From positions 434,001 to 498,000 of the forward strand of contig JAENYZ010000003.1 in NCBI GenBank assembly GCA_016841525.1: 64,000 nt of DNA. The letters run 5' to 3'. Shown one piece after another: positions 24,579 to 29,477 of this stretch (position 1 is its first letter; each line of letters begins with the position of its first letter). The translations under genes and the position numbers were made by a program. This stretch comes from Anaerolineaceae bacterium. GTDB lineage: Bacteria; Chloroflexota; Anaerolineae; Anaerolineales; Anaerolineaceae. The notes under the pieces are model-generated. The model worked only from the letters and a program-made list of their open reading frames with translations, was not told where the DNA came from and did not search any database.

Positions 24579-25067
24579 TTACAACATTGCTGCTTCGACC
24601 CATAAATCAGCAGACCTGCCAAATAATTGGGATTGAACCAAATAGCGATGGCTTTTTTCTTCCAATAAGCGAATACCTTTGATCCTGCACTCATTTAATA
24701 TAGCAGAACGGTCTTTGGTACTGTTCTTCAAGATAGCCAGAAGTATTTCTGGGTCATCATCTGCTGCGATACGGTTGATGGAAAGTTCTCCGCAAGTAAT
24801 ACAGCGGTGTACCAGCATCAATTCTCCGTGATTGTCAGGGGCATATTTATCCCGGCTGCGTTTGAGTGTCAACCCGACAGGTGCCATCAGTGCTTTGCAA
24901 GCACCCAAGCGGTCCCCAGGATCATACAAATCAACATGTCGTGAATGGAGACAGTATGGGCAGTGGTTTCGATTAACCACGCCGGATACCAGGGTTAGAG
25001 AGCTGACAAAACAGCCGCAGTGTTTGCAAATGAAATCAGCGTTTATGTTTTTATGATAGGTTTGCAT
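24579..25067 (-). CDS. RNHCP domain protein
   Basis: A 162-residue protein with an N-terminal zinc-binding RNHCP domain. Cys-14, Cys-17, Cys-36 and Cys-39 form two CxxC pairs, the second inside the name-giving motif RNHCPYC (33-39), followed by LHSRHVD. A further HRCITCGE pair occurs near residue 90. The domain is widespread but of unknown function. It follows rsgA by 8 bp and is evidently cotranscribed, which hints at a ribosome- or RNA-linked role. That link is inference. Confidence 0.85.
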   Translation of the reverse strand: MQTYHKNINADFICKHCGCFVSSLTLVSGVVNRNHCPYCLHSRHVDLYDPGDRLGACKALMAPVGLTLKRSRDKYAPDNHGELMLVHRCITCGELSINRIAADDDPEILLAILKNSTKDRSAILNECRIKGIRLLEEKSHRYLVQSQLFGRSADLWVEAAML

Positions 25068-25075
25068 CGTTCACC

Positions 25076-26074
25076 TCACAAATCATCTTTCAAACGCAGA
25101 TAGCTCTGGTATCGATATGGGCTGATCCTACCATCCATCACGCCCTGGCGAACAGCACAGCCAGGTTCTTCATCGTGCTGGCAGCTCAGACCGAATTTAC
25201 ACTGGCCTAATACAGGTGCTATTTCAGGGAAGAACACGGCGATATCCATTGATTCAAGCCCATAGACTCCAAACTCGCGTACACCTGGGGTGTCGATCAG
25301 CGCGCCGCCACCCTGAAGAGGGAACATCTCCAAATGGCTGGTGGTATGGCGTCCCTTTCCAGTTGATTGGTTAACGGTTTGAACCCGCAAGCCAAAACCG
25401 GGTTCTAATGCATTCAGTAAGCTGGTTTTTCCCACACCGGATTTTCCAACCAGGACGGAATGTTGATCCGCCAGGGTCTGACGGAGGTGATCCAAGCCTT
25501 GAGATGTTTTACTGCTGGTTACAATTACGGGATACCCAATGGATTGATAAAGCGCAATCCAGGTTTTTAGCTTACCTTCCGCTGGTGTTCCCTGCACCAG
25601 GTCAAACTTGGTGATCACAATCCTGGAAGGGATACCGTATGATTCAGCAGCGACCAGGTAACGGTCGAGCATATGCCACTTGGGTTCGGGATCAGCTGCT
25701 GCAAAGACCGGGATAACCTGATCGATATTGGCAGCGATAACCTGTTCAAATGTATGCGCGCCTGGCATAGGTTTAGCAGAACTGCGAGCGATATAATTTT
25801 TCCGAGGGAACAAATCCATAATCATTCCGGATCCGTCGTCTGTCTTAATAAATTGCACATAATCTCCAATTGCAATAGGATCCATGTGTTTTTCGCTGAC
25901 GTGTGTCACTCGTCTGCCAGGATTATCTGAAAGCTCAGTTGTTGAAAAGTCCTTCCAGAGCTTTGCTGACAGGCTGCAATTTGTTATTTTATTGTTGTGT
26001 TGGACATCATAATGCCCTAACATTTTCTTATAAACGATACCGGTAAAATGGGTATCGGTGTTTTGGGTTTGCAT
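25076..26074 (-). CDS. rsgA: Ribosome small-subunit GTPase RsgA (YjeQ)
   Basis: A 332-residue circularly permuted GTPase that helps mature the 30S subunit. An N-terminal OB-fold (about 10-95) is followed by the permuted G motifs: G4 TKFD, G1 GKSGVGKTS, G3 DTPGVREFG, and a C-terminal zinc motif CKFGLSCQHDEEPGCAV. Start: ATG preceded by AAGGAAAG. Translation lies at the end of a leader of roughly 480 nt that starts at a strong promoter near 26589 and passes two terminator-like hairpins. Expression is therefore probably regulated by attenuation. Confidence 0.95.
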   Translation of the reverse strand: MQTQNTDTHFTGIVYKKMLGHYDVQHNNKITNCSLSAKLWKDFSTTELSDNPGRRVTHVSEKHMDPIAIGDYVQFIKTDDGSGMIMDLFPRKNYIARSSAKPMPGAHTFEQVIAANIDQVIPVFAAADPEPKWHMLDRYLVAAESYGIPSRIVITKFDLVQGTPAEGKLKTWIALYQSIGYPVIVTSSKTSQGLDHLRQTLADQHSVLVGKSGVGKTSLLNALEPGFGLRVQTVNQSTGKGRHTTSHLEMFPLQGGGALIDTPGVREFGVYGLESMDIAVFFPEIAPVLGQCKFGLSCQHDEEPGCAVRQGVMDGRISPYRYQSYLRLKDDL

Positions 26075-26181: not shown

Positions 26182-26240
26182 GAATTTCTCCTTAAAGACG
26201 GCTTGCTTGAAAAAATTTTCAAACCACCGGTATATATTAA

Positions 26241-26279
26241 CAAAAAGAACGGTCACAGAGTAAATTCCGTGACCGTTCT
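26241..26279 (-). terminator. Terminator-like hairpin of the rsgA leader
   Basis: On the minus strand AGAACGGTCAC (26279-26269) pairs perfectly with GTGACCGTTCT (26256-26246), with a 12-nt loop, and is followed by TTTTTG. It has all features of an intrinsic terminator and lies inside the leader between the promoter and rsgA. Confidence 0.65.
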
Positions 26280-26530
26280 AATAATTTGAAAGTTGTGTTG
26301 ATCAAAATGAATTTGATCAATCTTTATGCTTTCAGGACAAAGGCAGGCTGCAGTGACCTGAGCCTCCTTTTTGTTCAATCATTAACATAAAAGGCCACGG
26401 GGTACGAACACACCCGTGACCGCAAAAATCGATAAGGTTATCGAATGGATTTCACAAATGAATTGAGGCGCGCTCGTATAAGTTTCCTATGATTATTTCA
26501 AATACCCTAGCCATAAAACGCGCCTCCTTT
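26246..26530 (-). ncRNA. Structured leader with two tandem three-hairpin modules
   Basis: The minus-strand RNA upstream of rsgA contains two modules. Module 1 (26530-26393): AAAGGAGGCGCG whose GAGGCGCG (26526-26519) pairs with CGCGCCTC (26472-26465); a small TCGATA/TATCGA hairpin (about 26444-26429); and a 9-bp GTCACGGG-type hairpin (26421-26413 with 26401-26393) followed by TTTT. Module 2 (about 26372-26246): AAAGGAGGCT pairing with AGCCTGCCTTT; TTGATCAAA/TTTTGATCAA; and an 11-bp AGAACGGTCAC/GTGACCGTTCT hairpin followed by TTTTTG. Sequence differs but the order and shapes match. It may be an attenuator or a small RNA; no known family is recognised. Confidence 0.45.
26452..26514 (-). CDS. Possible 20-residue leader peptide
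   Basis: ATG at 26514 is preceded, eight bases upstream, by AGGAGG, and about 50 bp upstream lies a strong promoter. The peptide MARVFEIIIGNLYERASIHL ends with TGA at 26454-26452, just before the first hairpins. Its own 3' coding part (CGCGCCTC) pairs with its ribosome site, as would be expected for a regulated leader. No amino-acid run is evident. Confidence 0.3.
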   Translation of the reverse strand: MARVFEIIIGNLYERASIHL

Positions 26531-26561
26531 TGTTTGAATTCTAATTAATAAAGCGGAATAT

Positions 26562-26589
26562 ATTTTAGCAAAATTTCCGAGATTGTCAA
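26562..26589 (-). promoter_or_regulatory. Strong sigma-70-type promoter of the rsgA leader
   Basis: TTGACA (26589-26584), a 16-bp spacer and TAAAAT (26567-26562) on the minus strand. Transcription would begin near 26555, about 480 bp before the rsgA ATG. It follows the riboflavin-transporter operon stop at 26688, so rsgA has its own promoter. Confidence 0.6.
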
Positions 26590-29263: not shown

Positions 29264-29455
29264 AATCCCCGGAAATAGATTCGGGGCAAGAGATCGCGTT
29301 ATAGAACGCAGATACCTTCTTTCATTCGGACTCTAACCGCCGGCACCGGTATTTCACCGGTTCATGTGCTGTTTGGCACTCGTGGGCTGCCCAATTTCTG
29401 GGATTACCACCGGTCGGGAATTGGGCCTGACGACCCTCACCCTGCCCCGAAGGAT
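29264..29455 (-). promoter_or_regulatory. FMN riboswitch (RFN element) with sequestering hairpin
   Basis: The minus strand carries the RFN consensus: ATCCTTCGGGGCAGGGTG at 29455-29438, then a GACCGGTGGTA-like block, AGCCCACGAG, ACCGGTGAAATACCGGT and finally AGTCCGAATGAAAGAAGG near 29331-29314. Downstream, CCCCG...CGGGG (29287-29267) forms a hairpin followed by ATTTTCTTT and ending just before the ribX ATG. FMN binding would favour this hairpin and shut off transporter expression by termination or by masking the ribosome site. Confidence 0.92.
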
Positions 29456-29477
29456 TTGTTTATTTAATTCTGAATGA

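Follow-up and report, generated by a model that had tools for sequence, protein, structure and literature searches.

In trp-type attenuators, including that of the attenuated second TrpRS gene of Streptomyces, a short upstream ORF (uORF) carries runs of cognate codons and the RNA folds into alternative 1:2, 2:3 and 3:4 helices. Several antibiotic attenuators are also built on a leader ORF. The bmrB-bmrCD leader of Bacillus subtilis has 53 codons, holds the terminator and serves a single operon (PMC4191407). In the rli80-hflXr system of Listeria, a 14-aa ORF with an RLR motif precedes the gene of an HflX-type GTPase, which protects against lincomycin and erythromycin (PMC6310831). In the msrDL-msrD system, macrolide stalling on the leader peptide prevents the intrinsic terminator in front of an ABC-F gene (PMC10314930). 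The WblC/WhiB7 regulon of Streptomyces comprises genes for aminoacyl-tRNA synthetases (aaRS), ABC transporters, ABC ATPases, ribosome GTPases, GNATs and MFS proteins (PMC7157823).

Here we analyzed a window of 64,000 nucleotides from an Anaerolineaceae bacterium (contig JAENYZ010000003.1), in which a second copy of rsgA is preceded by a leader that we regard with considerable confidence as a ribosome-mediated transcription attenuator ahead of rsgA2 and the adjoining RNHCP gene. A literature search that combined rsgA leader peptide, attenuation and antibiotic found no paper, and one for RNHCP returned only chemistry papers. The term "RIO kinase" occurred in none of the matches listed for RIO kinases with antibiotic or uORF attenuation in bacteria, and "Anaerolineae" in none of those listed for attenuators, leader peptides, riboregulators or antitermination in that class. 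To judge from this limited search, the rsgA2 leader is not in print.

Results

Organization of the leader upstream of rsgA2

The rsgA2 gene (25076..26074, minus strand) is a second gene for ribosome small-subunit GTPase A; its product of 332 aa is recognized by Pfam and NCBIfam (GTPase domain PF03193, 2.4e-54; TIGR00157 above its cut-off), and the gene of an RNHCP-domain protein (24579..25067, minus; Pfam) lies 8 nt past it. Three rsgA-like matches were found in the genome of the window, and the other two are 45% and 35% identical to RsgA2. Among the named records whose proteins come closest to RsgA2, most (6 of 11 loci) are Anaerolineales-type Chloroflexota. The leader is present in the records of two cultured relatives, Ornatilinea apprima P3M-1 and Levilinea saccharolytica KIBI-1. 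An FMN riboswitch (RF00050, 85.9 bits; 29310-29458, minus) is located 5′ of the ABC-transporter-type genes that precede the leader.

Read on the minus strand, the order of elements is promoter, AAAGGAGGCGCG, 20-codon uORF, hairpin T1, hairpin T2 with its T tail, rsgA2 and the RNHCP gene. The promoter (26562..26589, minus) is of the sigma-70 type; its TTGACA-16-TAAAAT, which an earlier sequence-only reading had noted, agrees with the consensus at 11 of 12 positions and has an extended -10 TG besides. Promoter-like strings are also found 5′ of T1 in many relatives. The uORF, which the same reading had placed after the promoter, occupies 26452..26514 (minus; 20 codons and a stop, MARVFEIIIGNLYERASIHL). 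Its Shine-Dalgarno (SD) sequence had been described as sequestered, and GAGGCGCG indeed opposes CGCGCCTC. The two GGTCAC/GTGACC hairpins with trailing T residues pointed out there proved to be T1 (26384..26421, stem-loop 26421-26393, minus), which is terminator-like with the T-rich tail TTTTATGTT, and T2 (26238..26279, hairpin 26279-26246, minus). A terminator scan scored T2 of the window as an intrinsic terminator with a T tail, and left T1, whose T tail is short and interrupted, unflagged. T1 and T2 have the stem core sequence in common, which fits alternative pairing between them. The predicted folding energy of the 338-nt leader was -107.4 kcal/mol, whereas its dinucleotide shuffles averaged -72.4 +/- 4.4 (z = -7.9, 0/100).

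Six helix strands, all on the minus strand, are distinguished hereafter. A is the SD of the uORF (GGAGGCGCG, 26519..26527) and B the 3′ end of the uORF (GAGCGCGCCTC, 26465..26475). C comprises the 5′ arm and upper part of T1 (26406..26421) and D its 3′ arm (26393..26402), and E and F are the 5′ and 3′ arms of T2 (26266..26274 and 26250..26258). B can pair with A or C, C with D or B, D with C or E, and E with F or D.

The sequence-only reading had seen two tandem modules and suggested a duplicated, structure-conserved RNA. The stem core common to T1 and T2 bears this out in part, but the second module has no uORF, and its masked SD, present in the window as a hairpin around AAAGGAGG (26340..26370, minus), is not conserved: an SD-like string occurred in 5 of 47 T1-T2 spacers, and inspection by eye found no start codon at SD spacing after it in the window. 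The small A+T hairpin likewise gave only a weak signal of conservation, with a mean z of -0.68 over 41 leaders, 15 of them below -1. We therefore rejected both as conserved features; the conserved unit is SD, uORF and T1, followed by T2.

Past T2, at 26181-26017 (minus), there is another short ORF with its own SD, which runs out of frame across the start of rsgA2; comparable short ORFs are visible in several relatives. It may provide an added translational layer. A switch that mainly frees the start region of rsgA2, perhaps together with this ORF, would make use of that overlap, but both T1 and T2 end in T-rich tails, and the terminator scan recognized T2 of the window as intrinsic; we consider translational attenuation improbable.

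Conservation of the leader in relatives

Among 400 genomes of the order, 69 had a match at E <= 1e-70, and the 18 weaker ones, with E from 4e-76 to 4e-71 and aligned only from about residue 63 on, were left out. We examined 54 loci, three of which (L044, L060, L076) have less than 400 nt upstream. T1 was found in 49 loci, that is, in 49 of the 51 with at least 400 nt upstream; it was absent from a canonical-like copy (L009) and from L074. In relatives the promoter comes first, then the SD, a uORF of roughly 20 codons, T1, T2 and the gene, and T1 usually starts 21-40 nt past the uORF stop. In the alignment of 41 of these leaders (A2; L006, L065, L067, L069, L071, L075, L080 and L082 were omitted), the uORF start codon fell in one common column in all 41 (36 ATG, 5 TTG). 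A search rule biased toward GCCACGG detected T2-like hairpins in 47 of the 49 leaders, the one in L070 being judged false. The stem and upper part of T1 were unusually conserved. We rejected a conserved C-terminal uORF peptide for the rsgA2 family; the reading frame of GCGCGCC varies by lineage (WARL, ERAS, GASL), indicating that the RNA and not the peptide is conserved there.

The leader is thus real and conserved, and it is very probably regulatory. Rfam gave no relevant match in the leader, with the whole window at the gathering cut-off or with seven loci at E <= 1. A match to an Aggregatibacter sRNA on the opposite strand of L154 (E 1.7e-4) was discarded, its score being 33.7 against a gathering value of 97. 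The alternative raised from the sequence, a stand-alone trans-acting small RNA ending at 26241, would suit the strong promoter and the terminator, which delimit a discrete transcript. The place before rsgA2 is kept in nearly all testable loci, the uORF is conserved and an Rfam match is absent, all of which count against this idea; we find it hardly credible, and there is no need for a separate small RNA. The terminated leader could still have an additional role in trans.

Alternative helices and their covariation

In the relatives, the strands form a relay of mutually exclusive helices, A:B, B:C, C:D, D:E and E:F, and covariation in rsgA2 leaders was found for A:B, B:C and C:D. Across the 41 A2 leaders, 82.1% of the A:B cells were paired, with two-sided change in 5 of 7 pairs, and 98.8% of the C:D cells. 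B:C, which excludes both A:B and C:D, was paired in 90.5% of the cells, with two-sided change in 7 of 9 pairs. Six of these nine pairs sit in upper T1, outside the eight-pair C:D stem, and in the fold of the window itself part of upper T1 can also pair inside T1. The B:C score was 0.399, compared with 0.287 +/- 0.017 in shuffles that leave shared ancestry in place (0/500) and 0.209 for the best slid pairing, in a test that is not blind because the B:C columns were picked after sight of the sequences. Cells with two-sided change numbered 31 against 8.6 in the shuffles, whereas the 7 pairs with two-sided change were not far above the 4.8 of the shuffles, 21 of 500 of which reached 7. The B:C duplex had an energy of -19.1 kcal/mol with its own partner and -15.6 with the partner of other species (0/5000 permutations), and the own partner beat the cross median in 36 of 41 leaders.

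For 40 loci, D:E was paired in 95.6% of the cells and E:F in 87.2%; the D:E figure is raised by the T2 finder, which rewarded likeness to GCCACGG, and both figures include two rows with misassigned T2, L008 (register) and L070 (probably no T2). Base 4 of E can pair with D in 40 of 40 loci and with F in 60%. Since D:E is nearly invariant, own and foreign partners differ little (7.65 versus 7.48 of 8 pairs, 0/5000 permutations), and the helix is supported by complementarity with little covariation. Median energies were -18.4 for B:C versus -20.2 for T1, and -17.7 for D:E versus -17.6 for T2. Because B:C and T1 are nearly equal in energy, the switch would have to rely on the order of folding.

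The uORF and the predicted stall site

When codons of all 41 A2 leaders were numbered from the aligned start, Val, Ile or Leu occupied codons 7, 8 and 9 in 29, 30 and 28 of the 41 rsgA2 uORFs (approximately 70%), compared with 22% on average elsewhere. Codon 18, within B, was also high in these residues (22/39). Codons 7-9 of the window (26488..26496, minus) read Ile-Ile-Ile and are the predicted stall site, on the basis of these counts and of the footprint model described below. This hydrophobic tract presumably resembles the arrest peptides of the Erm type and others; a literature search for Erm arrest motifs found no paper. By eye, RLR occurs in two of the 41 uORFs (L040, L053), at codons 17-19 within B, and neither early in the uORF nor in the window.

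To model a stalled ribosome, RNA hidden to 12 nt past the P-site codon, an assumed footprint, was removed and the remainder was folded to the end of C. With the stall at codons 7, 8 and 9, B:C was the best fold in the model (-23.2, -23.2 and -22.0 kcal/mol). At codon 10 B:C was truncated (-15.4 kcal/mol), and at codon 11 a different fold won. The model shows that B would remain free for stalls up to codon 9 and would be hidden by later ones. In the same kind of folding, A:B forms when the ribosome is absent, and T1 forms downstream of a ribosome at the stop codon.

Occurrence of the scaffold upstream of other genes

R1, a covariance model built on the A:B and C:D helices, matched 116 of 396 genomes of the class at E <= 0.1, with seven candidates scored per genome, and weak matches among these may be chance. 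We took the listed R1 places down to E 9.2e-4, minus four already known rsgA2 places, which gave 86 loci with 88 matches (A3), mostly before genes other than rsgA2 and including two weak strays (L107, L154). R1 recovered all eight divergent rsgA2 leaders outside its training, whereas L074, which lacks T1, was unmatched, and it matched none of 24 canonical or remote rsgA loci. Two opposite-strand matches appeared in the rsgA control (L067, L071). A draw of 301 genomes from the phylum gave matches at E <= 0.001 in 18, all from the window's order or closer, and we make no claim of absence elsewhere. Together with the retention of T1 and the covariation, the lack of R1 matches at canonical or remote rsgA loci strongly supports the regulated leader of rsgA-RNHCP that had been suggested from the sequence.

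R1 knew B and C as sequence and never as a pair. In A3, A:B and C:D together were paired in 92.5% of the cells, with two-sided change in all 15 pairs. B:C was paired in 87.5%, with a score of 0.221 compared with 0.179 in shuffles (0/500) and 0.074 for the best slid pairing; its two-sided change in 6 of 9 pairs was not above the shuffles (4.8, matched by 96/500). Downstream of T1 and no farther than 30 nt into the called gene, 24 of the 82 other R1 loci have a near-perfect complement of D, where shuffling expects 1.0, and 20 of these 24 come from the 48 loci that leave 60 nt or more ahead of the gene. The strict complement was absent from 58 of the 82 places, and the called gene lies within 60 nt at 34 of them.

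The downstream gene was defined as the longest ORF starting at most 800 nt away, which may not be the first gene, and for L119, L123, L138 and L155 the assigned ORF starts more than 600 nt away. Clustering of the 84 downstream proteins of at least 100 aa by blastp yielded 26 RIO-kinase-like, 20 ABC and 10 RsgA proteins, acetyltransferase-like clusters of 9, 3 and 3, 3 AspRS, 2 MFS and 2 LeuRS proteins, and 6 singletons, of which Pfam identifies two as acetyltransferases. In the Pfam scan, 18 of 20 cluster representatives matched a family; the two without a match were L147, from a three-member cluster that looks like acetyltransferases, and L153. The proteins of L112, L119, L123 and L153 were left without an assignment. 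L151 scored above the NCBIfam cut-off for ribosomal-protection-like ABC-F, and the MFS protein of L108 was nearest to TetA(P), under its cut-off. A second copy of the leader in the genome of the window stands before a RIO-domain kinase (L125, G000:C1:211485-214200). Neither this spread nor the likely role of the uORF as sensor was noticed in the sequence-only reading.

The Val/Ile/Leu peak at codons 7-9 was not found in the 79 uORFs of the other R1 places. Three acetyltransferase leaders (L135, L156, L165) have a common peptide, MFMxKxYIxxSxTxxxGxDSRSAPVRR, unlike the rsgA2 peptides, and having a peptide type of their own hints at a separate stalling signal for each gene class.

Outside the order, and unmatched by R1, the regions upstream of rsgA2 relatives in two WOR-3 MAGs (L277, L280) were inspected by eye. 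Both have an SD, a short uORF (MSEIKNKMDSWKPPLASA and MSVIIKTLDSWKPPLASA) with CCTCCCC near its end, and a GGGGAGG hairpin downstream, apparently the A/B/C logic of the rsgA2 leader in unrelated sequence. Inspection by eye likewise showed a short SD-bearing ORF (MAEIVALATSTT...) 5′ of a cyanobacterial rsgA relative in Phormidium LEGE 05292 (L279).

Codon matching in AspRS2 and LeuRS2 leaders

For the aaRS genes we sampled 40 relatives for each of two genomes. Alongside the common copy of AspRS and LeuRS, some genomes have another one that is more divergent. Of 60 AspRS and LeuRS loci, 12 belong to such second copies, and R1 matched seven of these; it matched none of the remaining 48. An Asn-rich uORF directly before B (e.g. 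MISRIQFVNQNNNHCARLWGGQS) was present in all six AspRS2 leaders found. Asn accounted for 26 of 141 residues in these uORFs, compared with 109 of 2506 in a comparison set (p ~5e-10), and Leu for 39 of 201 residues in seven LeuRS2 uORFs, compared with 213 of 2506 (p ~1e-6), according to binomial tests that count residues and related leaders as independent. LLL occurred in four of the seven LeuRS2 uORFs; the other three were weaker, and it is as a group that the seven are Leu-rich. Neither LLL nor four Asn in nine residues was found in any of the 113 peptides of the comparison set, namely the 79 uORFs of other R1 places (RsgA included) and 34 hand-picked rsgA2 uORFs. Of the 11 LeuRS2 places tried, seven gave a readable uORF, one begins at a contig end (L217) and three showed no T1 by pattern (L233, L247, L249); the start codon of AspRS2 and LeuRS2 uORFs was picked by hand where several in-frame starts were possible. 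If stalling in the uORF upstream of B is the ON signal, such codon matching is what is predicted; the richness in Asn and Leu therefore ties uORF stalling to switching on. The AspRS2 uORFs (L182, L183, L107, L157, L242, L243) are Gln-rich besides (17/141), as if both amidotransferase-made aminoacyl-tRNAs were sensed.

These results also bear on binding of T1 or T2 by RsgA2 or the RNHCP protein as an autoregulator, an idea to which the conservation of the T1 stem and upper part would lend itself. The conservation of upper T1 is accounted for by B:C covariation, the same hairpins stand before unrelated genes, and uORF codons match the aaRS genes, so that autoregulation appears very improbable.

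The amino-acid match of the aaRS leaders on the same scaffold leads to a different question, whether, in the manner of classical biosynthetic attenuators, the rsgA2 uORF senses shortage of the branched-chain amino acids Val, Ile and Leu in place of an antibiotic, within the same attenuator. Val is the most enriched residue in the 34 hand-picked rsgA2 uORFs (102/657 versus a background of 0.087), and the Ile-Ile-Ile of the window would fit as well. But V, I and L interchange at fixed codons without a single-residue run, the target is a ribosome GTPase and not a biosynthetic gene, and sister leaders precede genes of ABC-F, exporters and a TetA(P)-like MFS protein. We consider starvation sensing by rsgA2 possible but rather unlikely.

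Discussion

The rsgA2 leader has a short uORF with an SD, exclusive covarying helices and an intrinsic terminator (T2) before the gene, as expected of an attenuator; a match between codons and signal was found in the AspRS2 and LeuRS2 sister leaders, and the rsgA2 uORF has the Val/Ile/Leu tract only. The mechanism that we propose supposes translation of the uORF and co-transcriptional folding. In the resting state A:B, C:D (T1) and E:F (T2) would be paired, and transcription would end before rsgA2. If the uORF were translated to its stop, the leader would also stay off, because the terminating ribosome would cover B. An elongating ribosome stalled at around codons 7-9 would hide A and leave B free; B would then take the emerging C and block T1, and the freed D would take E and block T2. 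With both terminators failing, RNA polymerase would enter rsgA2-RNHCP. In leaders without T2, T1 alone would suffice.

The uORF sequence would set the signal: Asn codons for AspRS2, Leu codons for LeuRS2 and the hydrophobic tripeptide at codons 7-9 for rsgA2, the last as expected of nascent-chain-dependent stalling caused by a 50S-targeting inhibitor. The rsgA2 switch probably answers translation inhibitors. We infer a drug rather than Val/Ile/Leu shortage as its signal, since the codon position is fixed while the residue varies and the companion genes point to translation inhibitors. The presence of leader copies before genes for drug pumps, ribosome protection and translation rescue suggests a shared alarm for blocked protein synthesis.

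More broadly, the Anaerolineae may have a translation-stress regulon with WhiB7/WblC-like gene content, run by copies of one homologous RNA attenuator and not by a transcription factor, and retuned by codon swaps in the uORF, in which RsgA2-RNHCP and bacterial RIO kinases would be unrecognised protection factors against translation inhibitors. We give this proposal an even chance. It names RsgA2-RNHCP and the RIO kinases as candidate new protection genes, which is testable, and the covariance model can find more leaders. From the content of a uORF one can predict which stress would induce the gene, and AspRS2 and LeuRS2 serve as internal checks of such predictions.

Compared with trp-type attenuators, the present scaffold serves both amino-acid-matched and other leaders, and it has two further features, a masked SD and a second terminator. 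The attenuators of bmrCD, hflXr and msrD were each described for one gene or operon, whereas here one scaffold with covarying alternative helices, present across a bacterial class, stands upstream of many translation-stress genes that are unrelated to each other. With bmrB-bmrCD it shares a translated leader ORF and the succession of terminator, anti-terminator and anti-anti-terminator; there, ribosome-targeting antibiotics control an ABC multidrug exporter, and exporters are also among the targets of the scaffold (PMC4191407). It differs from that system in its 20-codon uORF, the relay of two terminators and the use of one scaffold before many gene families. Like rli80-hflXr, the rsgA2 leader has a small ORF and alternative RNA folds before a ribosome-associated GTPase gene (PMC6310831), a likeness by description, but its uORF shows V/I/L at codons 7-9 and its GTPase is of the RsgA type. 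As in msrDL-msrD, a ribosomal-protection-like ABC-F gene (L151) is among the genes preceded by the scaffold, but the msrDL leader is MYLIFM and stalls at its own stop codon (PMC10314930). The kinds of target gene are like those of the WblC/WhiB7 regulon, although RIO kinases and RsgA are not seen among the members given in the excerpt of PMC7157823. Unlike that regulon, which depends on one transcription factor, each gene here apparently has its own copy of the RNA switch.
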